The notes under the pieces: generated by a model
Database searches by the model: none
What the model was told of the DNA's origin: nothing
What the model saw: the letters and a program-made list of their open reading frames with translations, nothing else
NCBI GenBank assembly: GCA_030426325.1
Contig: JAUHYO010000005.1
Coordinates: forward strand, 1-36,581
Reading direction: 5' to 3'
DNA: 36,581 bases
Source of the DNA: Gammaproteobacteria bacterium
GTDB taxonomy: Bacteria > Pseudomonadota > Gammaproteobacteria > Steroidobacterales > Woeseiaceae
Made by a program: the position numbers and the translations under genes
Shown: positions 3,569 to 27,174 of the stretch, piece after piece
Layout of the letters: every line of letters starts with the position of its first letter
Numbering within the stretch: the first letter of the stretch is position 1

Positions 3569-5487
3569 GGTTTGAGGTGTGAGTCGAGAAAGGCGACAAG
3601 CGGTTCATAGAGTTTCCTTGCTTCATTGATGTACTCGAAGCCGTGACCCACGTCATCGAGAATCACAAAATCAGGGTCAATGCCACGCAGTTTCATTAGC
3701 ATCCGTAGGCGCCAGCTGTGTTCGACGTCGACAACCCGGTCGGCGGTCCCGTGCGCGAGCAGGATCGGGCGGTTAATGTCTTTGTAACGGTATGCCGGTG
3801 AATGTGCGCGCTGTTCTTCATAATCAAGGTCAGGATCGCCGATAATTCGTGCCAGCGTCTCCCGTAACTCGGGGTTCTTGTGAATCCTCGACTGCGCAAA
3901 CAGCAGTGTGAGGTCGGTGACGCCGGCGAACGAGGCGCCGCACTTGTACATTTCGGGGCTGCGGATAACGCTCATCAGGGCGGAGTAACCGCCATAGCTC
4001 GAACCGAATATCCCGATGCGGCCACCGTCGATCTGTGGGTATTTATCAAGTGCAGTCATCACTGCGGCATCGATGTCGTCCTCAATGCCGCGTCCCCATT
4101 CACGCAGGCCCGCCTCAATAAACTCCTGCCCGTACCCGGACGAACCTCGATAGTTCACCTGCAATACCGCATAGCCCTGCTGTGCGAGCCATTGGACATC
4201 CTGCGAGAAGTATCGGCTGTCGCTGACACCGATAGGCCCGCCGTGAGGCATGACGACGAGTGGAATGGAATCGCCACCGGCAGCAGGCAGCGTCAGGAAT
4301 GCGTCGACGGTGATTCCTTCCTCGGAATCGATTTCGAGAACGACCGTGTCGCTGAGCGTCTCCGGATCCAGCCACGGAGCCAGTTCAACCAGCATCTCGC
4401 AATGATCGTCTGCCAGGTTACAGCGCTGAATTTCACCCCGGTCCCTGGAGGTCGAGGTGCGGATCAGCTGAATGTTGCCGTCTTTCGAGCGCCCGACAAT
4501 GATGATTCCCTTGTCCGGGAACTTGCCCTGGATCTGATGGAACTCATTGCGGGCGTCTTCGGAAAAGAAGTGATATCGAAGCATGCCTTGTTCCGAGAAA
4601 ACCACACCGTAGGGCGCGAGTTCGCCGGGCCGGATCAGCAGTTTGCGTAAATCGAATCGTTCATGTTCAAAGATGGTCCGTACCAGCGATCCATCTCTGA
4701 GATCCAGTTCGATCGCCGCGGTCTTGTCGGTAAAGGCATTTGAGAGCGCAAACAAGGTATTGCCGTCTGGTGAAACGCCGTAAGGGTAAAAGTCGGCTTC
4801 CTTGTTTGCCGCCCAAATTTGAGTCCAGTCATCGACGCCTGCCGTGCGGCGCCATACCTCCGGGATGCCATCGATGTACCGGATACCGGCGATATAGTGA
4901 CCGTTGTTGTCGGCGGCATAATAGAAATAGTCACTCGACCCGGTATCAACCCTGAGCTGCCGCTTGAACAACTTGCTTGATTTGGCAAAGACATCGATGC
5001 GGAAAAGGTCGGTGGCAACATACTCGTCTTCCCGCCGTATGCGCGCATAGACGACTTCGTCGGCGCTGTCGAGAAGCGGGTCATGAATATATCCGTCGAT
5101 TGAATGCTGTTCTGACTGAATTTCCGAGTATTCTCCAGCGTCATTGACGCCCATTCGACTGGGTCGAAATTTTTCGACGCCGCTGATCCGGTTCCATGTT
5201 TGTACGACCAGCGTGTTGTCGCCAATCCACTGAATGTCCTGCACGCGTTCGTCTTCGCTAAAACTGTGAATGCGGACATAACCGACGTCAGAATTGCCGA
5301 CATAGACTTCCTGGTTCCTGCGATAGGCATCGTATTCACCGGTGGGTGATAGCTCGATCGATTGGATTTCGCTTGCGCGAAACAGGTCGTCGAACGTGAC
5401 ATTCGTGTTGTCGCCCTCGTCGGCACTCGCTCCGATACACGGAGCCAGGAATGAAAAAACAACTAACAGGCTAATCGAATGTTTCAT
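3565..5487 (-). CDS. secreted S9 family (prolyl oligopeptidase-like) serine peptidase
   Basis: Signal peptide [22 protein letters not shown]; beta-propeller-like N-terminal half; nucleophile [14 protein letters not shown], Asp in [14 protein letters not shown], His in DDVGHGFEY. Confidence 0.9.
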
Positions 5488-6421
5488 TTGCGACCCCCGT
5501 GCTAACCAGGCGTTTTTCACTCAGGTAGAAATCGGTAAAGCGATCATCCGGATACAGGCCGTTGGCAATTTCGTATTGATCCATGAGTTCCGGGTAGCGC
5601 TGTTCAAGTGCCGTTAACGTAATAATGAGGCGATCATTCAGTGAGACCCGGTAGTAGCCATCGGACTGTACGTTCAGCAAGAAAACACCGGCGTAATTCA
5701 GCTTGCCGGCAACGACATCAAAGCGCATATCGAACTTGCGCAAGTTATAGGTACGGCGGGAGTTGTAGAATTTTTGTTCAATTTCCTCCCATTCGTAAGT
5801 ACCGGCTTTGGCCCGGATTACGCGAAACTGCTCGCCCCGGCGGTTCGGCCCAAACACGATGGTTCCGCCGAGCGCGTTGAGCCGATTGATACGCACAAAA
5901 TTGGTCGCCTCGGTTGAGTTGAATGCAATGATGAGCAGGCCTTCATCGTCGTCGAGCCGTTCGAGGTCAAAGCGTTCTTCAACATCGTTCTCAAGTAGTT
6001 GGAGAACCGTTTCGTAGGCCTGGTAATTGAGATCGTAGGCCGTATGAACGGCCGCGCGGTCGTGGCAGGTGAAGTTTGGCACATCATGGGCCATGGACTG
6101 GGCGACCTGTTCGACGATGTCCTCCACGTAGGCGGCACGGGCCTGGTCGATTCTCCGGTAGTTCTTGAATCGTTCGACAGAGGCGCGAAGTTCTTCGTCT
6201 GTTGACTTGCCCCCGGTGTTCCCGGCCAGCTTGCGTTCCACGAGGTCGAGCAGCCGCGCTTCGTATCGCTTCTGTAACCGGTTGGATTTTTCGACGTGCG
6301 ACTCGGCATTCCGGGTCAGCATCTTCTGGCACTTGGCGAATGCTTTGCTGGGTTCAGACGACGCACCGACTGGCATCGCCAGCAGGGCGATCCCGGCAAG
6401 CAGCACGAGGCGACTACTCAT
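5471..6421 (-). CDS. secreted protein of unknown function, paralog A
   Basis: Signal peptide MSSRLVLLAGIALLAMPVGASS. Clear similarity along its length to the next gene (RAKAGTYEWEEI, AGKLNYAGVF, LEQRYPELMDQYEIANGLYPDDRFTDFYLSEKRL). Confidence 0.75.
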   Translation of the reverse strand: MSSRLVLLAGIALLAMPVGASSEPSKAFAKCQKMLTRNAESHVEKSNRLQKRYEARLLDLVERKLAGNTGGKSTDEELRASVERFKNYRRIDQARAAYVEDIVEQVAQSMAHDVPNFTCHDRAAVHTAYDLNYQAYETVLQLLENDVEERFDLERLDDDEGLLIIAFNSTEATNFVRINRLNALGGTIVFGPNRRGEQFRVIRAKAGTYEWEEIEQKFYNSRRTYNLRKFDMRFDVVAGKLNYAGVFLLNVQSDGYYRVSLNDRLIITLTALEQRYPELMDQYEIANGLYPDDRFTDFYLSEKRLVSTGVANETFD

Positions 6422-7367
6422 TGTTGTCCATGCCGCCTGCGGCACTCGCAAGCCGTTTTTCGGAAAGATAATACTCGGTGAATCGGTCGTCGGGATTCAG
6501 GCCGTTGGCAACTTCATACTGGTCGAGAAGATCCGGGTATCGCTGTTCCAGTGCGGCGAGCGTGATCACTAATCGATCTTTTAACGATGCCGAATAATAT
6601 CCACCGGGTTTCACGTCAAACATGAAAACGCCGGCGTAATTGAGCTTGCCGGCTTGGACTTCGAACTTGAGATCGAGATTCTCAAGTTTGTACAGGCTTC
6701 TGTAGTCCCCTGACTTTCTATTGATCTGATGCCAGTTGTAGGTACCCGCTTTGGCCCGCATTACGCGAAAGTATTCGCCACGCCAGTAAGGCTCGAACTG
6801 AATGTTTCCGCCAATTGCACCCTGACGGTTAATTTTGACCTCATGCGTCAGGGTCGATGCGTTGTACGCAATTATGACCAGGCCCTCGTCCGGCTGAATG
6901 TACTCCAGGTCAATGCGTGCCTCAATATCGCCTTCGACGAGTTTCAGCGTGCGCTCGTAGTGATACAAGTAATTATCGAACGTATATAGGGTAGGACTCC
7001 GATTCTGGCATCGCAAATCCGACCCGTCGTTTTTCTCCAGTTGCAAATGTCGCTCAATGGCTTGCTCAACATACGCATCGCGCGCCTGAACGAGGCGGTG
7101 CCATCGTTTGATGCGTTCAATGGAGTCAAGCAACCGATGGTCGCTGGAGGCAAAGTCGCCGCTGTCCTTGAAAGCGCTTCGCACAATCTTCTGGAGTCTT
7201 GCGTCGTACTTGTGTTGAACCTTGTCGGCTTTCTTGAGGTGTAAAGCGGCCTGTTTTTCGACCAGTTGCCGGCAAGCAGTGTAAGCGGCACTTGGCTCGG
7301 CATTCGCGATTGGCATCGGCGTCAGGAACGCGGTACAAAAAAGCGCGATGTGAGCGGCTGCTTTCAC
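6414..7367 (-). CDS. secreted protein of unknown function, paralog B
   Basis: Signal peptide MKAAAHIALFCTAFLTPMPIANA. Shares RAKAGTYNWHQI, AGKLNYAGVF and LEQRYPDLLDQYEVANGLNPDDRFTEYYLSEKRL with paralog A. Confidence 0.75.
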   Translation of the reverse strand: MKAAAHIALFCTAFLTPMPIANAEPSAAYTACRQLVEKQAALHLKKADKVQHKYDARLQKIVRSAFKDSGDFASSDHRLLDSIERIKRWHRLVQARDAYVEQAIERHLQLEKNDGSDLRCQNRSPTLYTFDNYLYHYERTLKLVEGDIEARIDLEYIQPDEGLVIIAYNASTLTHEVKINRQGAIGGNIQFEPYWRGEYFRVMRAKAGTYNWHQINRKSGDYRSLYKLENLDLKFEVQAGKLNYAGVFMFDVKPGGYYSASLKDRLVITLAALEQRYPDLLDQYEVANGLNPDDRFTEYYLSEKRLASAAGGMDNNE

Positions 7368-10259: not shown

Positions 10260-11512
10260 GCGAATCCGTGGATATATTCGAGCAACTCAGCGGGATAAAC
10301 ACGCTCCTGCCACCAGCCGCTGGACTGAGCATTCTGGTCGTCGTCGCGATCATTGCGCACCTGGTTGTCAAGTACGCCCTGGTACGTGCCGTACGTGCGT
10401 TTGCCGATCGATCGAGTGTTACCTGGGACGATGCACTGGTCAGCCACAATGTTCTTGGGCGCCTGGTCCAGGTGCTGCCGGCGCTGATCGTTTTCATTGG
10501 CACGCCATTGGTGCCGGATCTGCCGGACAGCGGTGTAACCCTTATCCGCAATATCACGATGGGCTACATCGTGTTGATGCTCACACTCGCGTTGACGGGG
10601 CTCCTCAGCGCCGCCAGTACGATCTATTCGAGCTTGCCGATAGCAAAAGAGCGCCCGCTGAAGGGGTTTGTGCAGCTCCTTCAAATTGTCGTCTGGATTC
10701 TTGGCGGCGTGATGATTATTTCGGTCGTCCTGGATCGTTCACCGCTGCTGCTGTTGAGTGGCTTCGGTGCAATGACGGCCATTCTGCTGCTGGTATTCAA
10801 GGATACGATCCTGTCGCTCGTGGCAAGCGTGCAATTGACGGCGCAGGACATGGTGCGTGTTGGTGACTGGATAGAAATGCCGCAGTTCGGTGCCGACGGT
10901 GACGTCATCGATGTGCAGCTGCATACCATCAAGGTGCAGAATTGGGATAAGACGATCACGACGATTCCGACCCATCGCCTGATTTCCGATTCTTTCAAGA
11001 ACTGGCGTGGCATGTCGGAGACGGGTGCGCGTCGAATCAAGCGATCGCTGTACATCGATGTTTCGACGATTCGCGTCCAGACACCGGACGAGATCGATCA
11101 CTTCACGCGGTTTGCTCTGCTTAAGGACTACATCAAGCAGAAAGAGCAAGAGCTCGCCGAATACAACAAGGGGCTTGCACATGAGGTTGATGACGAAGTT
11201 AACCGGCGCCGGCTCACAAACATCGGCACATTTCGAGCATACGCATTCAACTACCTCAGGAATCATCCGAAAATTGACCAGGACATGACGCTCATCGTCC
11301 GACAGCTCGCGCCCGGACCGGAGGGCTTGCCGCTGGAAATCTACTGCTTCACCAACACCACACAGTGGGCTAAGTATGAAGGTATCCAATCCGATATCTT
11401 CGATCACCTGATGGCGATCGTGCCGGAGTTTGGCTTGCGTTTATTCCAGAAGCCGGCGGGCTCGGATCTGGCGAAGCTAAAAGATCAAATGTTCAACGCT
11501 GCTCAAGATTGA
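10244..11512 (+). CDS. MscS-type mechanosensitive ion channel family protein
   Basis: Several TM helices; GFGAMTAILLLVFKDTILSLVASVQLTAQDMVRVGDWIEMPQFGADGDVIDVQLHTIKVQNWDKTITTIPTHRL. Alternative GTG start at 10268. Confidence 0.9.
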   Translation: MARDLGESVDIFEQLSGINTLLPPAAGLSILVVVAIIAHLVVKYALVRAVRAFADRSSVTWDDALVSHNVLGRLVQVLPALIVFIGTPLVPDLPDSGVTLIRNITMGYIVLMLTLALTGLLSAASTIYSSLPIAKERPLKGFVQLLQIVVWILGGVMIISVVLDRSPLLLLSGFGAMTAILLLVFKDTILSLVASVQLTAQDMVRVGDWIEMPQFGADGDVIDVQLHTIKVQNWDKTITTIPTHRLISDSFKNWRGMSETGARRIKRSLYIDVSTIRVQTPDEIDHFTRFALLKDYIKQKEQELAEYNKGLAHEVDDEVNRRRLTNIGTFRAYAFNYLRNHPKIDQDMTLIVRQLAPGPEGLPLEIYCFTNTTQWAKYEGIQSDIFDHLMAIVPEFGLRLFQKPAGSDLAKLKDQMFNAAQD

Positions 11513-14500
11513 GCGTATAACGCGCTTCGCGGCGCTTGCCGGTGGCATGTTCAACGCTCAAGCGCAAAGTCCAAACTTCGCTACCTTCCAGCAAGCCTGC
11601 GGGAAATTGGGCTAGTACTGCATCGTGAACACGAACGAGAATATTCTCACCGACTTTCTGCCAACTGGCTGGCTCGTGACCGAGACCGATTTCCAGGGTC
11701 CCATAGCCGAACAGGTTTGCATCTGCAAGGCCGCGAACTGAAATCAATACTTCGCCATCCTTGTCGGCTCGAGTTACAGCGCTGATTTCAGCGTCAATAA
11801 AAAAATCCGGGTCGGCTGCCAGCGCGGCCCCGGCATCTACTACGCCAAAGCCGGTCAGTCGATCTTTGCCTGCGGCTTCGACATCACGAGCTGACTGCTC
11901 GACGATGCGTCGAACCTGTTGCGCCGTTAGCTGACGACGCTCCGACCAGACCAGAGAAGCAATCCCGCTAACGATTGGCGCGGCAAAGGACGTTCCCGAT
12001 GAACGGTAGTAGCGATAGTCGTCGCCGAGAAAAGCATCACCACGAACATAGGATGTCTCGGCCTTGTTGTACATGAAGTCAGTCGCGCGTGCGCGCAGGC
12101 TGACGATATCGACGCCCGGTGCCGCTACGCTGATTGCTGATCCTACGTTTGAAAATACTGCGCGCCGGTCAGTGGCATCGGTCGCCGAAACCAGCATGAT
12201 ATTCTTGGGCGTGGCAGGCTGGATGGCATCGATGTCTTCGGCCCCGTTGCCTGCTGATGCGACGATCAGCAGTCCTTTCGCATGCGCGTAGTCAACGGCA
12301 TCGTGGACAGCCGGCGGAAAGCCTGGACCGGACACGCTGAGGTTGATTATCTGTGCCCCGTTATCTGCCGCGTAGACAATGGCTCGGGCGACGTAGGATG
12401 CCCGAGTCCGACCGAAATTATTCAGCGCTTTGAGCACCATGATGCGAACATTTGGGTTAACTCCATCAATGCCCACATCATTGCCGCTCGTTGCACCGAT
12501 TAGCCCTGCAACAAAGGTGCCGTGGCCATCGTAGTCCCATGGGCGATTTTTATCAGCGGTAAAGTCCCAGCCGATCAGATCATCGACGTAACCATTGTTG
12601 TCGTCGTCTACGCCGTTATCGGGGATTTCTTCTGCATTTCGCCAAAGATTGTCCCAGGCAAAGTCCAGATGATTCCAGTCGAGGCCAGTATCGATCACGG
12701 CAACAACTACCGGACTTCCGACGGGCGTTTTGTCAGCCGTTAATCCCGCGTGGCCAAAGTCCCAGCGATCGTCGACCGACTTGATGGGCGTTTCGGCCGA
12801 CGTCAGGTAGCCGCTACCCTCCTGTGGCAGCGCCGAATCGCCGCAATCATTGTTGCTCCAGCTGGAATTCGGAATCAAATCTAACACCGACAAATCAATG
12901 CCGGTCGACTCCTTGTAAGCATGGCTCACATTAAAATTGTCCCCGATTGAGAAGCCCCGGTTTGGCCTTGTGAAACCGGCGGGTATCTGAGCCTGAATCT
13001 CGGCGGGCAGCTGGTCAAAATTCATGCCGGGTGCGCCGTATCCGGGAAACGTCTGAATAATGCTGTCAACGCGATCATACTCGAGTTTTACGCTGATCGA
13101 ATTGGTGTCGTAATCCGCTTTGATTTGCCACGGCGAACGCTCGAGACTTGCGCTCCCGGATGACCCAGGCAATTCCGAATTCGGGAGTTGCCCATTCTGG
13201 CGCGCGATTCCATCGATCCCCGTGAAGAGGCGGTCGCCAGGAAGATCTGCGCCCAAGGTTGTGTTGCGAACGGCACCCAGGCTGAATGGAAGGTCCTGTT
13301 CGTCGATGCCATTCGATTTCTTCAGCAAGACGGCGAGGCCGGAAACGGGTTTGGCGATGCCGTTTTCACCGGACTCAAAAATTTCAACATTGATCGATGG
13401 TCCGGTGGATTGGGAAAATGTTGGCTCGGTTATCGCTTCCACGTTGGTTCTGGTGCAGCCTTTCCACATATCCTGCAGCGCGAGATTGAGTTCCTCTCGC
13501 TCGGCCTCTGCATCAAGCGCTATTGATGTTGCTTCGGCCTGGTCAGCATGCGTTGTGTCGGGATGGCGAATGTAATCCCACATTTGCATTGCCGTATCGT
13601 TGAACGCATCGCGTTTCCTGATCATTTCCAGCATCGCCAGGCGCTGATCTTCGGAGCAGTAGCGGAAATCGAAAGCACTGGCGGGCGGGAGGTCGTGCGT
13701 CGAAAAGGGGTCCGAATCCGCGTAGCCGGATGGGCTTAACTGACCGTACATGGAATAAAAGCCCTGGAGAATCGCGGCGGAATCAAACTGTATCTCCGAT
13801 ACAGCCGGCGTATTGGCAAACCGCCCCAGGTAGAGAGCGTAGTAGAGTAAACCACGCGTGATTTGCAGTCTGGAATTCTCCGACAGGTTGGGGTCGGCGC
13901 TCACCGATTGAAGCATGTCGACCCATTGTTCCAGCAGCTCCTGTCCCTTGTCGATCAGTGTAATGGTCGTGGTCGGTTGAATCGCCAGGTAATCGTTTGA
14001 TCGCATTATCTGTTCGAAGATTTCAAGAACCGTATCCGGATTCATGTGCCCCATTGTGAATGCGGCATCGGAAAAATTAACACCAAACAGCTGTGCGTTT
14101 AACATCAATGCTGCGAAGAGTAGCTGCCGGTCGGCGGCGGCGTAGTCGGGATTCTGCAAGGCCTGAGAGAACAGGTTCTGGAATTGAGTATATGAATTAA
14201 AAGAAGCTTCATATGCGTCCCTTTCCACCAGTTGTGCAAGCACAGCGTCAGGATCGAACAGTCCGAGTACAAAACCTGCGTCTGAAAGCATCGGGTGATA
14301 GAGGCGCGGATTCTGCATCAGGCTGAAGAACGCATGGCTCTTACTTTCGGGCGATGCTGACGGGTGCGCGAGAATTTTCATGAACAGCATATACAATTGC
14401 GTGTATTGATACTGCATTGGCAATGGCTCGTCGGGGCTCAGCGCGCCATCAGCCTGGGCTATTCCGCTAGCATCGAAGGCAGTGCGAACAGCCGACAATG

Positions 14501-15368
14501 CAAGGGCAGGATTGAACAGTTCCAGCTCCTGTAGCGCAGTCGCTGCGGCGGACTGCAGGGTTGCGTAGTTTTGCATGACGACAAGCGCCGCCATCAGCTT
14601 ATCGTTGCGTGCAATACTTGGATTAGCGGTCGCTTTTTGCAAATCGCGCCAGGACTCGGCAGCAATATCCGCGCCGGCTTGAGTGCCGCTCCTGGCGGGC
14701 GAATCTGGCTGGCGAGGCGGGGTGACGGGCGGTGGCAGGGCGCGTTTGAACCCCTCGTCAACCGAGCCCCAGTACTGTTGCCTGCGGCTGTCAGAAAAGT
14801 TGCCTATGCCATAGTTGTGATCGGGAAACCAAAGATGCAACGGTAACAAGGCCCCGTTAGTCGCATCGCAATATTCGTTGCTTTGAATCGCAAGACTATA
14901 GTCGTTCAGTATGCTGGCCGTTGCGGGCAATGCGGCTGAGCCACTGGCATCGGCAACGGCCGCACCAGGGCGCGTGGTAATCAGGACCAAACCGTTCGAT
15001 GCCTCAGCTCCATACAACGCGGTCGCGGAGGCGCCTTTGACGATGTTGATTTCTTCAATCAAGTCCGGGTCGAGATCCGATATGTCACCGCTGGTTCTGA
15101 CACCATTTACTAGAACCAGTGGACTTCCGGCGCTGGATCCCGTTCCACGTATCGTGACGTCTGCGGCGCCAGTTGTCGCTCCCGGATGCGCAGGCAAGTT
15201 GCGCAGCAGATCCGAAATATTTGTTGTCGAAGATAACTCCAGGTCTTCCGCGGCTATTGTTGTGACCGGTGCCGGCCCGAGCGTACCGTCGCGTTCAAAA
15301 GCCTGCAACGACGCGTGGAGCCCGATGCACGCGAACAGCGCGCAGAATGCTGCGATCTTTCTGGTCAT
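11493..15368 (-). CDS. S8 (subtilisin-like) serine peptidase with N-terminal SusC-like TonB plug domain
   Basis: Signal peptide, then DVTIRGTGSSAGSPLVLVNGVRTSGDISDLDPDLIEEINIVKGASATALYGAEASNGLVLITTRPG (plug). C-terminal subtilase: VVVAVIDTGLDWNHLDF (D893), YDGHGTFVAGLIGA (H949), SSGTSFAAPIVSG (S1127). Confidence 0.88.
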   Translation of the reverse strand: MTRKIAAFCALFACIGLHASLQAFERDGTLGPAPVTTIAAEDLELSSTTNISDLLRNLPAHPGATTGAADVTIRGTGSSAGSPLVLVNGVRTSGDISDLDPDLIEEINIVKGASATALYGAEASNGLVLITTRPGAAVADASGSAALPATASILNDYSLAIQSNEYCDATNGALLPLHLWFPDHNYGIGNFSDSRRQQYWGSVDEGFKRALPPPVTPPRQPDSPARSGTQAGADIAAESWRDLQKATANPSIARNDKLMAALVVMQNYATLQSAAATALQELELFNPALALSAVRTAFDASGIAQADGALSPDEPLPMQYQYTQLYMLFMKILAHPSASPESKSHAFFSLMQNPRLYHPMLSDAGFVLGLFDPDAVLAQLVERDAYEASFNSYTQFQNLFSQALQNPDYAAADRQLLFAALMLNAQLFGVNFSDAAFTMGHMNPDTVLEIFEQIMRSNDYLAIQPTTTITLIDKGQELLEQWVDMLQSVSADPNLSENSRLQITRGLLYYALYLGRFANTPAVSEIQFDSAAILQGFYSMYGQLSPSGYADSDPFSTHDLPPASAFDFRYCSEDQRLAMLEMIRKRDAFNDTAMQMWDYIRHPDTTHADQAEATSIALDAEAEREELNLALQDMWKGCTRTNVEAITEPTFSQSTGPSINVEIFESGENGIAKPVSGLAVLLKKSNGIDEQDLPFSLGAVRNTTLGADLPGDRLFTGIDGIARQNGQLPNSELPGSSGSASLERSPWQIKADYDTNSISVKLEYDRVDSIIQTFPGYGAPGMNFDQLPAEIQAQIPAGFTRPNRGFSIGDNFNVSHAYKESTGIDLSVLDLIPNSSWSNNDCGDSALPQEGSGYLTSAETPIKSVDDRWDFGHAGLTADKTPVGSPVVVAVIDTGLDWNHLDFAWDNLWRNAEEIPDNGVDDDNNGYVDDLIGWDFTADKNRPWDYDGHGTFVAGLIGATSGNDVGIDGVNPNVRIMVLKALNNFGRTRASYVARAIVYAADNGAQIINLSVSGPGFPPAVHDAVDYAHAKGLLIVASAGNGAEDIDAIQPATPKNIMLVSATDATDRRAVFSNVGSAISVAAPGVDIVSLRARATDFMYNKAETSYVRGDAFLGDDYRYYRSSGTSFAAPIVSGIASLVWSERRQLTAQQVRRIVEQSARDVEAAGKDRLTGFGVVDAGAALAADPDFFIDAEISAVTRADKDGEVLISVRGLADANLFGYGTLEIGLGHEPASWQKVGENILVRVHDAVLAQFPAGLLEGSEVWTLRLSVEHATGKRREARYTLNLEQR

Positions 15369-15464: not shown

Positions 15465-17486
15465 ATGCGATTCGCTCTAATCACAATAATAGCGTCGCTG
15501 TTCGCCAGTTCGCTCGCCTTCGCGAAGGTTGACCCGGATGCCACCTATTCCGGGGATCCGCCTCTGGCCTTCAATAGTTCCACTCTGTGTCTGGGCGCCG
15601 ACTGCCCCATTGCCATCAGCGGTGCCACCCAGCCGGCTGATTGCAATTTCGCCGGGCTTGGGATTCCGGAGCCGTTCACTCCCATCGCTGGCGAAGCTGG
15701 AATGCCATCAATCAGGATAACGGGTGGTGATGCTGGCGGTAGCGCATTCATGTTGACGCCACCAATAGGCGGCGACAGCTTTGACCTCGGTGCGCCGGTT
15801 TGGCCAAGCAACTGGGATACCGGATACGACGCCAGTCCGATTCGCGGCATTTTCGACAGCGATGGCGTTGGATTGTTGCCGAATGGAATATTCGGTGAGA
15901 ATCCAGCGACAACATTTGGCGCGACCTCGTCGAGGTATTCCAGCCTGAATGTCACTGCAAGCGCATCGCAGCTTGGTCCGGAAATCGGTGCGCACATTTT
16001 TTCTGACGTTACGATCAACAACACAAATTACGTTACGCTGCTTTTTGATGCCAATGAGCTTGCGAGTATTCGCCGGTCGATCGATTCAGCCGGGATAGCA
16101 GGTGTTGAAGACAATGTTTGTCGTGTGGTCCTGTTGCCATCGGACCCTAACTTTCTGAGAACCGGACGGCATGGCGGCGGGTCCTGGGGGCAGCAACAAG
16201 ATGATCAGTGGGCGATCAAACGCGTGGGATACACCACCGACGAGAATTCCGCATGGAATTTCCTGCCAGCAAGACTTGAGCCGGTGATCGTGGCGGTCAT
16301 CGATACCGGGCTTGATTGGCAGCACCTCGACATTGCTCCGGAATCGCTTTGGAAAAACCCCAACGAAATCGCCGGCAACGGTATCGACGACGATCGCAAC
16401 GGCTACGTCGACGACATCATCGGCTGGGATTTCCTGGCCCGTTCGAATGCACCATGGGATTACGATGGTCACGGCACGGTCGTTGCCGGTGTCATTGCCG
16501 CCGCTCACAACAATGTCGGTATGGCCGGCATCAGCCCGAACGCCCGTATCATGGTGTTGAAAGCCGTGAACAATTTCGGCTCCGGCCGTGCCTCCTTCCT
16601 GGCGGAAGCGATTGTGTACGCGGTCGACAACGGAGCAAAGCTAATCAATATCAGTGTCGGGGGCAGCGGGACCAGCAGCATGGAGTCGTCAGCCATCGAC
16701 TATGCACATAGCAAGGGCGTGCTAATTGTCGCAGCTGCGGGCAATGAAGGTGTTGAATTGACGGATTTTGGTCCAGGCGGTCACAGCAATGTCCTGACGG
16801 TGGGGGCGACGCACATGGATGATCGGGCAGCAGCGTTTTCAAACTACGGTGATGCAGTCGATATCGTCGCGCCGGGAGTTGATGTGTTGAGCCTCAGAGC
16901 GCGGTACACGGATGTCAATTTTCGCCCCCAAATAGACGATAGCTATGAACTGGGCGCCAATAACGTCGGCGACGACATGCGCTATACCCATGTCAGTGGC
17001 ACATCGTTTTCGGCGCCGATCGTAACCGGAACAGCGGCACTGCTGCTTGGCAAGAACCCGTCGCTGGCAGCCGAACAAGTCAAGTACCTGTTACTCGCCA
17101 CAGCGGACGATATTGAACAACCTGGCCGCGACAAGTATGCGGGTTATGGTTTGCTCAATGCCCGTTCGGTATTGACGACCACCACCGACTTTTTCCTGAC
17201 TGCGGAAATTACCGGTACCGAGGTGACGGAAAAAATGCTGAACGTCAAAGGGACAATTAATGCGGATCACTTCAAGAGAGCCTGGATGCAGATTGGTGCA
17301 GGCGAGACACCTGGCCAGTGGCGGTATGTCGGCGCTAAGCGGAAGTATCCGATTCAAAACGGGGTGTTGGGAAGCATTCCGTTGCAGGAGCTCGAAGGCT
17401 CCGAGCTTTGGCAAATCGTCGTCAGTGTCGAACACAAAAGTGGCCTGATCAAACGGGTGCGTTACCCGATCAGGATGAAGAACTAG
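15465..17486 (+). CDS. secreted S8 (subtilisin-like) serine peptidase, plug-less paralog
   Basis: Signal peptide MRFALITIIASLFASSLAFA; VIVAVIDTGLDWQHLD (D280), YDGHGTVVAGVIAA (H336), VSGTSFSAPIVTG (S514). C-terminal domain resembles that of the divergent 1291-aa protein. Confidence 0.92.
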   Translation: MRFALITIIASLFASSLAFAKVDPDATYSGDPPLAFNSSTLCLGADCPIAISGATQPADCNFAGLGIPEPFTPIAGEAGMPSIRITGGDAGGSAFMLTPPIGGDSFDLGAPVWPSNWDTGYDASPIRGIFDSDGVGLLPNGIFGENPATTFGATSSRYSSLNVTASASQLGPEIGAHIFSDVTINNTNYVTLLFDANELASIRRSIDSAGIAGVEDNVCRVVLLPSDPNFLRTGRHGGGSWGQQQDDQWAIKRVGYTTDENSAWNFLPARLEPVIVAVIDTGLDWQHLDIAPESLWKNPNEIAGNGIDDDRNGYVDDIIGWDFLARSNAPWDYDGHGTVVAGVIAAAHNNVGMAGISPNARIMVLKAVNNFGSGRASFLAEAIVYAVDNGAKLINISVGGSGTSSMESSAIDYAHSKGVLIVAAAGNEGVELTDFGPGGHSNVLTVGATHMDDRAAAFSNYGDAVDIVAPGVDVLSLRARYTDVNFRPQIDDSYELGANNVGDDMRYTHVSGTSFSAPIVTGTAALLLGKNPSLAAEQVKYLLLATADDIEQPGRDKYAGYGLLNARSVLTTTTDFFLTAEITGTEVTEKMLNVKGTINADHFKRAWMQIGAGETPGQWRYVGAKRKYPIQNGVLGSIPLQELEGSELWQIVVSVEHKSGLIKRVRYPIRMKN

Positions 17487-17496
17487 GGGAAATATC

Positions 17497-18696
17497 GTGA
17501 ATAAGCTAGCGTTGCTTGTGCTCGCAGCCCTGCTCCTGCCCGTCAGCGTGCAGGCGAAAACCAAGCCCGCCTACGAAATCCCGACCTTGCCAGAAAAAGA
17601 GGATGAGGAAAGCCTCTGGGAATCAGCTAGCAAACATGAAATGCGTCTGCGCAACAGCGGCACTGTTTTCCGCGACCGGGAGATAGAGGCATACCTTGAA
17701 TCACTCGCTGATCGACTGATCGGGGATCGGCTGGATCACCTCGGTATTGAACTCGATTTCATGCTGGTTGCCGAACCCACACTTAATGGTTGGGTGTATC
17801 CGTACGGCACGGTGGGTCTGCATACCGGTCTGCTGGTGCGCATGGACAACGAAGCGCAACTAGCGGCCATTGTTGCGCATGAGGTGTCGCACTTTATGCA
17901 ACGGCATACCTATCGCGAAATGCTCGATGGGAAAAAACAGTCGGTGCTTGGCAAGGGGCTCGGTTTCCTGGCGTCGGCGGCATTGGCTCGAGAGACCGGA
18001 ACGTTCGACAAAGGGGTGATGGATTTTACCGGCGAACTTTGGAGCAATCTTGCGACCAGCGGTTATTCGAAGAAAAATGAATACGTAGCCGATGAGGAAG
18101 GTCTGGATTTGATGGGGTATGCCGGGCTTTCGATAGATGAATCAATACCGGCGTTTCATCGGCTGGCGGAAAACGAAGCCTACGGAGCTGGCGACCCGCG
18201 AAAAATGTGGAGTAGTCATCCGCGCCTTGAGGATCGAATCAGCAACCTGCAGAAAGAAATCAAGAAGAAGAAACGAAAAAAGGGACACGAGCAGGGAACG
18301 GTTCCGGAATCGGTGCAATACTATAAAGCCATCGCGCCGGCGCTGATGATAAACGCGAATCTCGATATTCGTGAGCAGCAGTACGAGCGGGCGAGAGACG
18401 CATTGGACAAATATATCCAGGCGATTCCAGACAGCCCGGATGCTCATTTTCTACGGGGCGAGTCGTATCGCATGCAGTCCATGCGCGGTTCCGAATTAAG
18501 CGAGGCTGTCGCCGCGTACCGTGAAGCGTTGTTGCACGACTCGGCTTATGCAGATGCCTACCGCGAAATTGGCATGGCGATGCGTGTTACGAAGAATCGC
18601 GGCGAAGCGATTGCGGCGTTCGAAAAATACCTTGAGATTGCACCGGAAGCGCCGGACGCTGGTATCGTCCGCGGCTACCTGGAGGGATTGCAGTGA
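17497..18696 (+). CDS. M48 family metallopeptidase with C-terminal TPR-like region
   Basis: Signal peptide; HExxH in LAAIVAHEVSHFMQRH; downstream Glu-containing NEYVADEEGLDLMGYAG; TPR-like repeats in the C-terminal third. Confidence 0.9.
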   Translation: MNKLALLVLAALLLPVSVQAKTKPAYEIPTLPEKEDEESLWESASKHEMRLRNSGTVFRDREIEAYLESLADRLIGDRLDHLGIELDFMLVAEPTLNGWVYPYGTVGLHTGLLVRMDNEAQLAAIVAHEVSHFMQRHTYREMLDGKKQSVLGKGLGFLASAALARETGTFDKGVMDFTGELWSNLATSGYSKKNEYVADEEGLDLMGYAGLSIDESIPAFHRLAENEAYGAGDPRKMWSSHPRLEDRISNLQKEIKKKKRKKGHEQGTVPESVQYYKAIAPALMINANLDIREQQYERARDALDKYIQAIPDSPDAHFLRGESYRMQSMRGSELSEAVAAYREALLHDSAYADAYREIGMAMRVTKNRGEAIAAFEKYLEIAPEAPDAGIVRGYLEGLQ

Positions 18697-19388
18697 GGAT
18701 TGCGCGCCTGCTGATTATTCCGCTCGTACTACTGCTGGCGCCGAGCATATTCGCGGCAGACAAGGATCAAGCCTTCACGACGGATAAGCGGGATTTCAAA
18801 AAGCGGTTCGCGACTATTGCGTTGTCCCCGGTGGACGCGGACCCGCTATTTAATATGCCGGACTCAGTAGCCAAGATCGTCGAAGAAGAAATCACCAAGC
18901 GCTTGCAGAGACGTGGTTACAACGTCTTACCCTCATCGGTGCTTGCAGGTATCCGTTCCACCATGGAAGCCCAGGTGGGCGGTACTACGAATGCGGAAAC
19001 GGGTGAAACCGATGCCGCGAGATTGCAGGCAGTGCGCAGTCATGCGTTGCGCGAACTCTGGTTGCAGCATCAATTTGACGGGGTTGCGACGATTCGTATT
19101 TCAACCACTACCGCGCAGTTTGCGAAAAGTAAGGCCGAGTGGGATGGTGTTACCCAGAAAGTCGAAAGTGAGGGACGTGACAAGGGCTATGGTGGTGGCA
19201 TCGTTGCGTCTTCTATTTCATTTGCGGTATTCGATGAGGCCATGCGGGTACAGTACGTTTATTATGGCGGGCTCGAACTCCTGCAAATGCGTGTAGAGGC
19301 GCAGTTGTTGCCGGTCCCAGCCGATCAGTACTTTCTCGACGAGAAACGAATCCGCAAAGCCGCGCAGATAGCGGTGTCCCCGATCTAG
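18693..19388 (+). CDS. secreted protein of unknown function (231 aa)
   Basis: GTG start overlaps the stop of the M48 gene (GTGA). Signal peptide MRIARLLIIPLVLLLAPSIFA. Confidence 0.7.
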   Translation: MRIARLLIIPLVLLLAPSIFAADKDQAFTTDKRDFKKRFATIALSPVDADPLFNMPDSVAKIVEEEITKRLQRRGYNVLPSSVLAGIRSTMEAQVGGTTNAETGETDAARLQAVRSHALRELWLQHQFDGVATIRISTTTAQFAKSKAEWDGVTQKVESEGRDKGYGGGIVASSISFAVFDEAMRVQYVYYGGLELLQMRVEAQLLPVPADQYFLDEKRIRKAAQIAVSPI

Positions 19389-24987: not shown

Positions 24988-26385
24988 ATGAAACCCTGCC
25001 GAATAGTGAAAGTGCTGCTCGCCTGCCTGGTCCTGGCAACTGCACCCCTCGCGGCGACGGAGGGCACCGCAGTCGTTCTCGATCTGGAGGGCGCCATCGG
25101 CGTTGCGACCGCCGAATTCATCATCACTGGGATCGAGGATGCCGAGGAGCGCGATGCGACTTTGGTCATCATTCGTATGGACACGCCGGGCGGGCTGGTC
25201 AACTCCATGCGCGATATCGTGTCGGCGATACTGGGTTCCGATGTACCGGTGGTCACTTATGTGTCACCAGCCGGGGCGAGAGCCGACAGCGCCGGGACCT
25301 ACATACTCCTGGCCAGCCATGTCGCGGCCATGGCGCCAACGACGCACCTGGGTGCGGCGACACCCGTCTCGCTCAGTGGTGACGATGTTGGCGGCGGCGA
25401 CTCCGGTTCGGAAAATGATTCCGACCCCGGCGCCGGATCGGACGAAACGAAAAAGTCGGCACCGTCTGGATCGGCGATGGAGCGCAAGGTCATGAACGAT
25501 TCGATTGCCTATATTCGCGGGCTCGCCGAAGCGCATGGCCGAAATGCCGACTGGGCGGAAAAGGCTGTCACCGAGGCTGCGACGCTAACCGCGAACGAGG
25601 CCCTGGAGATGAACGTCATCGACGTGATCGCTGCGAACCGCGCCGAGCTTCTTAAAAAAATCAATGGCCGCGAAATCAAGGTAAACAATCAGAGCGTTAC
25701 GCTCAACACTGAGGCCTTGCTGATCGAAAAAATCGAGCCCAACTGGCGCATCAAGTTTCTGAGCACGATCGCCAGTCCCGAGATCCTGATGATTCTTATC
25801 ATGATCGGTGTTTACGGGCTGTGGTTCGAAGGCACCAACCCCGGCGCGATTGTTCCGGGTGTCGTCGGTGTTATCGCACTTTTGCTTGCTGCTTACGCGC
25901 TGCAGGTTCTGCCGGTCAATTACGCCGGGCTGGCGCTGATTGTCGTCGGCATCGCCCTGATCGTCGCCGAATCGTTCGTCCCGAGTTTCGGAGCGCTTGG
26001 CGTGGGTGGGATCGTTGCCTTTATTTTTGGCGGCATCATCATGTTCGACAGCGGCATACCCGGGTTCGGTATTTCAATCTCTTTTCTGGTTGGCTTTGCC
26101 CTGATTTCCGGCGTTTTTTTGCTGTGGATGGTTTCCTATCTCGTCAAGTTACGCCGGCGCGGTGCGGTTACCGGAATCGAAAATATCGTTGGTGGTACGG
26201 GCACGGCGATGGATTCGTTCTCAGGCGCAGGTCGCGTCTGGCTGGAGGGCGCACCGTGGTCCGCATTCAGCAGAGTACCCATCGATAAAGACCAGCAGGT
26301 CGTCGTAACCGCGGTTGACGGACTGATACTTGAAGTCGAACCCGTGCGAGCACCCGATGCCGCCGCCGCGGAACATCAAACTTAA
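24988..26385 (+). CDS. NfeD family protein with ClpP-like serine protease domain
   Basis: GTAVVLDLEGAIGVATAEFI, RMDTPGGLVNSMRDIV, SPAGARADSAGTYILLASHVAAMAPTTHLGAATPV; C-terminal multi-TM segment and NfeD beta-barrel-like tail. Confidence 0.92.
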   Translation: MKPCRIVKVLLACLVLATAPLAATEGTAVVLDLEGAIGVATAEFIITGIEDAEERDATLVIIRMDTPGGLVNSMRDIVSAILGSDVPVVTYVSPAGARADSAGTYILLASHVAAMAPTTHLGAATPVSLSGDDVGGGDSGSENDSDPGAGSDETKKSAPSGSAMERKVMNDSIAYIRGLAEAHGRNADWAEKAVTEAATLTANEALEMNVIDVIAANRAELLKKINGREIKVNNQSVTLNTEALLIEKIEPNWRIKFLSTIASPEILMILIMIGVYGLWFEGTNPGAIVPGVVGVIALLLAAYALQVLPVNYAGLALIVVGIALIVAESFVPSFGALGVGGIVAFIFGGIIMFDSGIPGFGISISFLVGFALISGVFLLWMVSYLVKLRRRGAVTGIENIVGGTGTAMDSFSGAGRVWLEGAPWSAFSRVPIDKDQQVVVTAVDGLILEVEPVRAPDAAAAEHQT

Positions 26386-26406
26386 AGACAACACCGGGGA
26401 ATACCA

Positions 26407-27174
26407 ATGACACTCATTCCATACGCGTCTGTTCTGATGCTAATCGTCGTCATCCTTTACAACACGATCAAGATTCTCAAGGAGTATGAGCGTGGCGTCA
26501 TACTGTTTCTTGGCCGATTCCAGAAGGTAAAGGGCCCCGGCCTGATTGTCCTGGTTCCGGGCTTGCAGAAAATGATCAAGGTGGACCTGCGTGTGGTTGT
26601 TCTGGATGTGCCCACGCAAGACGTCATTTCGCGTGACAACGTTTCAGTCAAGGTCAATGCTGTCATTTACTTCCGCGTCGTCGATCCGGAAAAAGCAGTG
26701 CTTCGCGTTGCCGATGTATTCGAGGCAACCAGCCAACTGTCGCAAACAACCTTGCGATCGGTTCTCGGCCAACATGAGCTCGACGACATGCTGGCAGAGC
26801 GTGACAAGCTGAATTTCGATATCCAGAAAATACTGGATCATCGCAGCGACGCCTGGGGCATCAAGGTCGAAAATGTTGAAATAAAGCACGTTGACCTGGA
26901 CGAGAGCATGATTCGCGCCATCGCCCAACAGGCGGAAGCGGAGCGAGCCAGGCGCGCGAAGGTTATCAATGCCGAGGGTGAAAAACAGGCCGCCAACATG
27001 CTGGCCGACGCTGCGCGAACGCTCGCTGGCGAGAAACAGGCGCTACAGCTTCGTTACCTGCAGACACTCAAGGAAATTGCCGGTGAGAAAACCAATACAA
27101 TCGTATTTCCGTTGCCGCTCGACCTGATCGAACCGTTAATGGCGCTGGGGAAATCGATCAAGGACGACCAATAG
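26407..27174 (+). CDS. slipin/stomatin-type SPFH domain protein
   Basis: [69 protein letters not shown]; follows nfeD, the usual partner gene. Confidence 0.93.

Follow-up and report, generated by a model that had tools for sequence, protein, structure and literature searches.

The window, i.e. the whole stretch of 36,581 nucleotides that was analysed, comes from the genome of a marine gammaproteobacterium of the family Woeseiaceae (assembly GCA_030426325.1, contig JAUHYO010000005.1). It contains a gene whose product joins a TonB-dependent receptor plug to a subtilisin-like protease of the S8 family. The unbroken 1291-aa frame of the preliminary description was found and lies on the minus strand, reading uninterrupted from 15368 to 11493; the plus strand is rich in stops there. 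The features of this ORF and of the genes next to it are:

11493..15368, minus strand: 1291-aa plug-S8 protein on one ORF, which ends with a stop codon at 11493-11495
15300..15368, minus strand: signal-peptide-like N-terminus, aa 1-23 (hydropathy and inspection by eye)
14991..15275, minus strand: TonB-dependent receptor Plug domain, PF07715, aa 32-126 (Pfam E 3.5e-18)
14826..14909, minus strand: conserved post-plug motif SLAxQSxExCDATxG, aa 154-181, with C167 (alignment)
13749..14651, minus strand: helix-rich insertion, at about aa 240-540, in the window's copy (low-confidence model and alignment)
12729..13706, minus strand: family-specific pre-protease region, about aa 555-880, with C571, C638 and C842 (alignment)
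11844..12716, minus strand: Peptidase S8 domain, aa 885-1175 (PF00082, E 2.4e-49, 168.6 bits)
12690-12692, 12522-12524 and 11988-11990, minus strand: catalytic D893, H949 and S1127, respectively
11496..11810, minus strand: C-terminal domain, aa 1187-1291, likely beta-rich, common to the neighbouring S8 protein
15465..17486, plus strand: divergent neighbour of 673 aa, a second protease of this S8 subfamily, without plug
17497..18696, plus strand: M48-TPR protease (match to the BepA model below cut-off)
18693..19388, plus strand: small exported protein of 231 aa, with a sub-threshold match to FlgO (E 0.046)

The protein starts with MTRKIAAFCALFACIGLHASLQA, which has a hydrophobic core at about aa 5-16 and, by hydropathy and by eye, looks like the signal peptide described earlier. 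The plug that follows reaches 66.5 bits, where the cut-off is 23.9, and covers profile positions 6-106 of 107; the complete plug previously placed at about aa 33-133 is thus recovered at aa 32-126 as a nearly full profile. The plug signature (RG, [ND]G, [YF]G and a later G) is retained, in the window's copy as RG, NG and YG, and the NCBIfam SusC/RagA signature is matched with 45.7 bits, slightly below its cut-off of 46.2. The AlphaFold2 model of the plug region, built from 3 sequences, is poor (pLDDT 41), and a Foldseek search with this weak model returned receptor structures only (BtuB, PirA, SusC and FepA). As the AlphaFold2 models are poor, the plug assignment rests on the profiles.

No receptor barrel (TonB_dep_Rec, PF00593) is matched in the ORF by the Pfam or NCBIfam models, in agreement with the earlier reading, and because no barrel match follows the plug we do not file the protein as a TonB-dependent receptor. 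The long middle region had been described as alpha-rich. A very poor AlphaFold2 model of aa 138-1291 (2 sequences, pLDDT 33) is indeed mainly helical with few strands, but most of the helical stretch at about aa 240-540 is an insertion unique to the window's copy and absent in the other members. At the end of the chain, the PF00082 match has D893, H949 and S1127 in canonical contexts, as claimed before, and the ORF is by these marks a predicted subtilase with an intact catalytic triad. No known S8 pro-domain was detected in it by Pfam.

Plug and S8 domain on one ORF were found in nine species from three families (f1, f10 and f15) of one order, with both domains confirmed by profiles in all of them. 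The members besides the window's are L021 (Woeseia sp. OFTM247, whose coordinates give the same place as G124), L022 (G030), L023 (G033), L043 (G240), L044 (G314), L045 (G176), L046 (G191) and L164 (G203). Six members come from the window's own family and have 59-89% S8 identity. The fusion occurs in 9 of the 396 sampled genomes of the order, including 1 of 150 in f10 and 2 of 40 in f15; no more plug-S8 proteins were found in the class (369 genomes, searched with a linker profile) or in the phylum (299 genomes, searched with an S8 profile). The distribution is rare and patchy, which implies that the fusion is frequently lost or moved sideways.

An assembly chimera or annotation artefact, fusing a receptor gene to a protease gene, had been raised as a possibility, with read breakpoints near 14970. 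Apart from the oddity of the architecture, and the fact that the window's genome is a draft in 435 contigs, nothing speaks for it. Against it, nine genomes carry the fusion without stops, among them G124 with only 6 contigs, and the GC content is continuous across the joint, with no break at the plug boundary near 14970. The eight other, independent genomes and the even GC content rule out this origin, to which we assign virtually no chance.

The order fusion, divergent plug-less S8, M48-TPR protease and small exported protein is found in the window, L021, L022, L023 and L044. The M48-TPR protease has the same position in L022, with like ORFs in L021, L023 and L044, and the position of the 231-aa protein is kept in all four; in L021, L023 and L044 both were identified by position, size and sequence ends. 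In L043 a contig end cuts the divergent S8 gene, and L045, L046 and L164 are without the divergent-S8 arrangement. The M48-TPR protease scores 112 bits on NF052400 (BepA), which has a cut-off of 570, and the nearby presence of this BepA-like protein suggests, by association, a role in outer-membrane protein handling. No TonB, ExbB or ExbD genes were noticed adjoining the fusion gene.

Elsewhere in the window, the minus strand encodes, side by side, two exported proteins that resemble each other (326 aa at 5471-6451 and 317 aa at 6414-7367); their C-termini are near-identical and the first is without a confident Pfam match. At 24988-27174 on the plus strand, an NfeD-type protein is followed by a 255-aa ORF that, by eye, has the look of a membrane-anchored SPFH/stomatin partner.

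The S8 parts of the fusions score about 650-725 bits on their own profile, compared with at most 212 for other S8 proteins in the first survey, and they form what is by profile score a distinct subfamily. Some members of the subfamily or its fringe lack the plug and have other N-termini (L165, 928 aa; L166, 1606 aa; L167, 1216 aa, 499 bits, many CxxC; L168, 528 aa, 417 bits; L169, 604 aa). L166 (4468-9285, G191) has a long unrelated N-terminal part with the same-subfamily S8 domain at its end, and is by its predicted domains another fusion of this protease subfamily. The N-terminal part of L167 (219-3866, G273), about 800 aa long, has many CxxC/CxxxC pairs, with 28 cysteines in the whole protein, and is perhaps metal-binding or disulfide-rich.

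A cysteine after the plug (C167) and one before the S8 domain (C842) are present in all nine plug-S8 proteins. The plug-less neighbours have comparable cysteines, and the mature part of L165 has just such a pair. C571 and C638 are jointly missing in L046 and L164. These patterns suggest two disulfide bonds, C167-C842 and C571-C638, and the plug would be a module inserted between the signal peptide and a Cys-flanked core common to the plug-less relatives.

This arrangement also bears on a reading without any external partner, in which the plug shields or steadies the protease like an autoinhibitory pro-domain and is cut off or displaced on activation. The conserved C167 and C842 could link the plug-core junction to the segment preceding the S8 domain, and no known S8 pro-domain was detected. 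However, the same subfamily has plug-less members, and differing plug types are tolerated (see below), which is unexpected for a tight-fitting inhibitor. We regard this reading as doubtful.

Sequence divergence is much quicker in the plugs than in the protease. In all pairs but the closest, plug identities are 29-43% where the S8 domains have 51-73%. The identity of the middle region tracks that of the S8 domain (rho 0.72), while plug identity scarcely does (rho 0.32, p 0.06, the pairs not being independent). For example, the SusC-type plugs of the window and L046 are 43% alike although their proteases are only 57% identical, while L164, the closest protease relative of L046 (72%), has another plug type. 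The L164 plug is 49-50% identical to the receptors L077, L028 and L078 but at most 42% identical to any S8 plug.

Trees of the plugs are based on 121-133 columns and have long branches, and the placement of L164 comes from pairwise identity. Keeping all S8 plugs in one clade was rejected in the reduced set (p 0.009 and 0.003) but not in the larger ones (p 0.33 and 0.18), and there was no rejection when only the L046 and L164 plugs were kept together (p 0.51). Forcing the protease topology on the plugs was rejected in every run (AU p 0.00006-0.0016). The plugs resemble different receptor subfamilies, although they may still go back to one origin. Given the rejected protease topology and the receptor-like plug of L164, replacement of the plug is likely to have occurred during the history of the family.

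In the closest pair, G030/G240, the plug is 59%, the middle 56% and the S8 domain 89% identical; by comparison, six plugs of ordinary receptors have 94-99% identity between these genomes. In this pair dN/dS rises from about 0.10 in the S8 domain through 0.25 in the middle to 0.34 in the plug (dN 0.35, dS 1.02). A plug value below 1 means that it is not neutral on average in this pair; as the middle diverges as fast as the plug, the divergence is partly not plug-specific. The plug is fast-evolving but constrained.

These rates could be taken to mean that the plug is a relic or spacer, i.e. that a receptor signal peptide and plug were captured, once or repeatedly, as an export start and have no plug-specific role. 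The fast divergence of plug and middle, the patchy distribution and the frequent loss of the TonB box (see below) would all fit. The constraint seen in the dN/dS of the closest pair does not, and neither does the preservation of the domain: all nine members score 64-129 bits on a plug profile made from receptors together with eight of these members, and the Pfam cut-off was passed in 6/6 members scanned there. A plug that has no role of its own seems to us somewhat unlikely.

Only L022, L043 and L164 (3/9) have a TonB-box-like motif, EV[IV]VT[GA], right after the signal peptide. It is missing in the other six members, and among these is the window's protein, for which the lack of a TonB box had been correctly noted. 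The motif matters for a further reading, in which the plug is an export handle by which the protease passes through a TonB-dependent transporter and ends up extracellular. The model here would be the subtilisin-like protease PopC of Myxococcus xanthus, which is handled by the TonB-dependent transporter Oar and crosses the outer membrane only with Oar, the Oar plug domain and the TonB box (PMC6434023). Woeseiaceae have many peptidases (PMC12175321), and the motif adjoins the signal peptide in the three members named. PopC itself, however, has neither a plug nor a signal peptide, two-thirds of the plugs are without the motif, and the neighbouring S8 protein is presumably exported regardless of its lack of a plug. 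Such a passenger role is unlikely in our judgement.

A receptor barrel without its own plug was looked for as a partner of the fused plug. In G030, G124 and G176, which are 95-99% complete, none of the 95 PF00593 barrels is plug-less, although very divergent barrels would escape this count. For every barrel compared, the ORF also encodes a plug, so a dedicated empty partner barrel is unlikely, and the fused plug would have to act on intermediates of assembly or else compete with the resident plugs. Apart from the S8 fusions, the plugs without a barrel in these genomes were few: a fragment at a contig edge, a receptor that is broken, a hit below threshold in an OmpA-like protein and an 889-aa ORF. 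The latter (L171, 452-3118, G124) has a PF07715 match and no PF00593 match, and is either a divergent barrel or a further plug fusion. In the 4.0-Mb genome of L046 (G191), TonB-receptor plugs are matched at least 150 times (150/219 candidates scored), by these matches an unusually large receptor set.

We tentatively suggest that the fusion is an exported protease directed by its plug to receptor- or TonB-linked partners, a reading we consider possible though short of probable. The signal-peptide-like start would (i) export the subtilisin-type protease to the periplasm or surface, where (ii) the plug would serve as its N-terminal recognition module, kept close at the plug-core junction by the C167-C842 disulfide. 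The plug could then bind a receptor- or TonB-linked envelope partner, the likeliest being the barrel of a TonB-dependent receptor that is being assembled or turned over, and this binding would bring the protease to its target; an exchanged plug would mean a changed partner. A docking module is favoured, indirectly, by the retention of the plug in nine species, the exchangeable behaviour of the N-terminus and the precedent of PopC and Oar (PMC6434023). The simplest version of docking is disfavoured, as all barrels in the three genomes have their own plug and six of the nine members are without the TonB-box-like motif.

A more specific form of plug-directed targeting can be speculated, in which receptor-family plugs have been swapped repeatedly as exchangeable bait, so that a single envelope protease is redirected to different barrels or to receptor-attacking agents (bacteriocins, phages), like an integrated decoy. 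This is a long shot. Separately, profiles of defence systems were run on the locus and gave no more than generic subtilase matches.

A retained family with a barrel-free plug on a protease would mean that a plug is able to act as a stand-alone module. The fusion would also offer a natural handle on how the TonB-dependent machinery handles a subtilisin-like protease, and on whether proteases police receptor assembly. With nine members, with and without a TonB box and with varied plug types, these ideas are testable.

Plug domains are regarded as parts of outer-membrane receptor barrels, and databases contain Bacteroidota proteins in which plugs are joined to non-barrel domains of other kinds. 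Plug and S8 are each textbook families. The preliminary description knew of no family with this arrangement, and likewise no paper on a plug-protease fusion was found among the open-access PMC papers searched; a candidate paper on a "TBDR-pTFP module" turned out to be unrelated.

Compared with known systems, the fusion is like the TonB-dependent receptors (PF07715 and PF00593) in its signal-peptide-like start followed by a full-length plug and, in three members, in the TonB-box-like motif, but it has the Cys-flanked core and the protease in place of the barrel. With the subtilases (MEROPS S8) it shares a complete S8 domain with an intact triad, yet it belongs to a distinct subfamily with, in nine members, a plug in front; the closest NCBIfam S8 models, both matched below cut-off, are mycosin (TIGR03921) and dentilisin (NF033595). 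The likeness to BepA, the M48-TPR outer-membrane quality-control protease, lies in a relative encoded two genes from the fusion, but this relative is only a neighbour and the functional link is one of association. PopC and Oar likewise tie a subtilisin-like protease functionally to a TonB-dependent transporter and its plug; there, however, plug and protease are on separate proteins, whereas here they share one chain.
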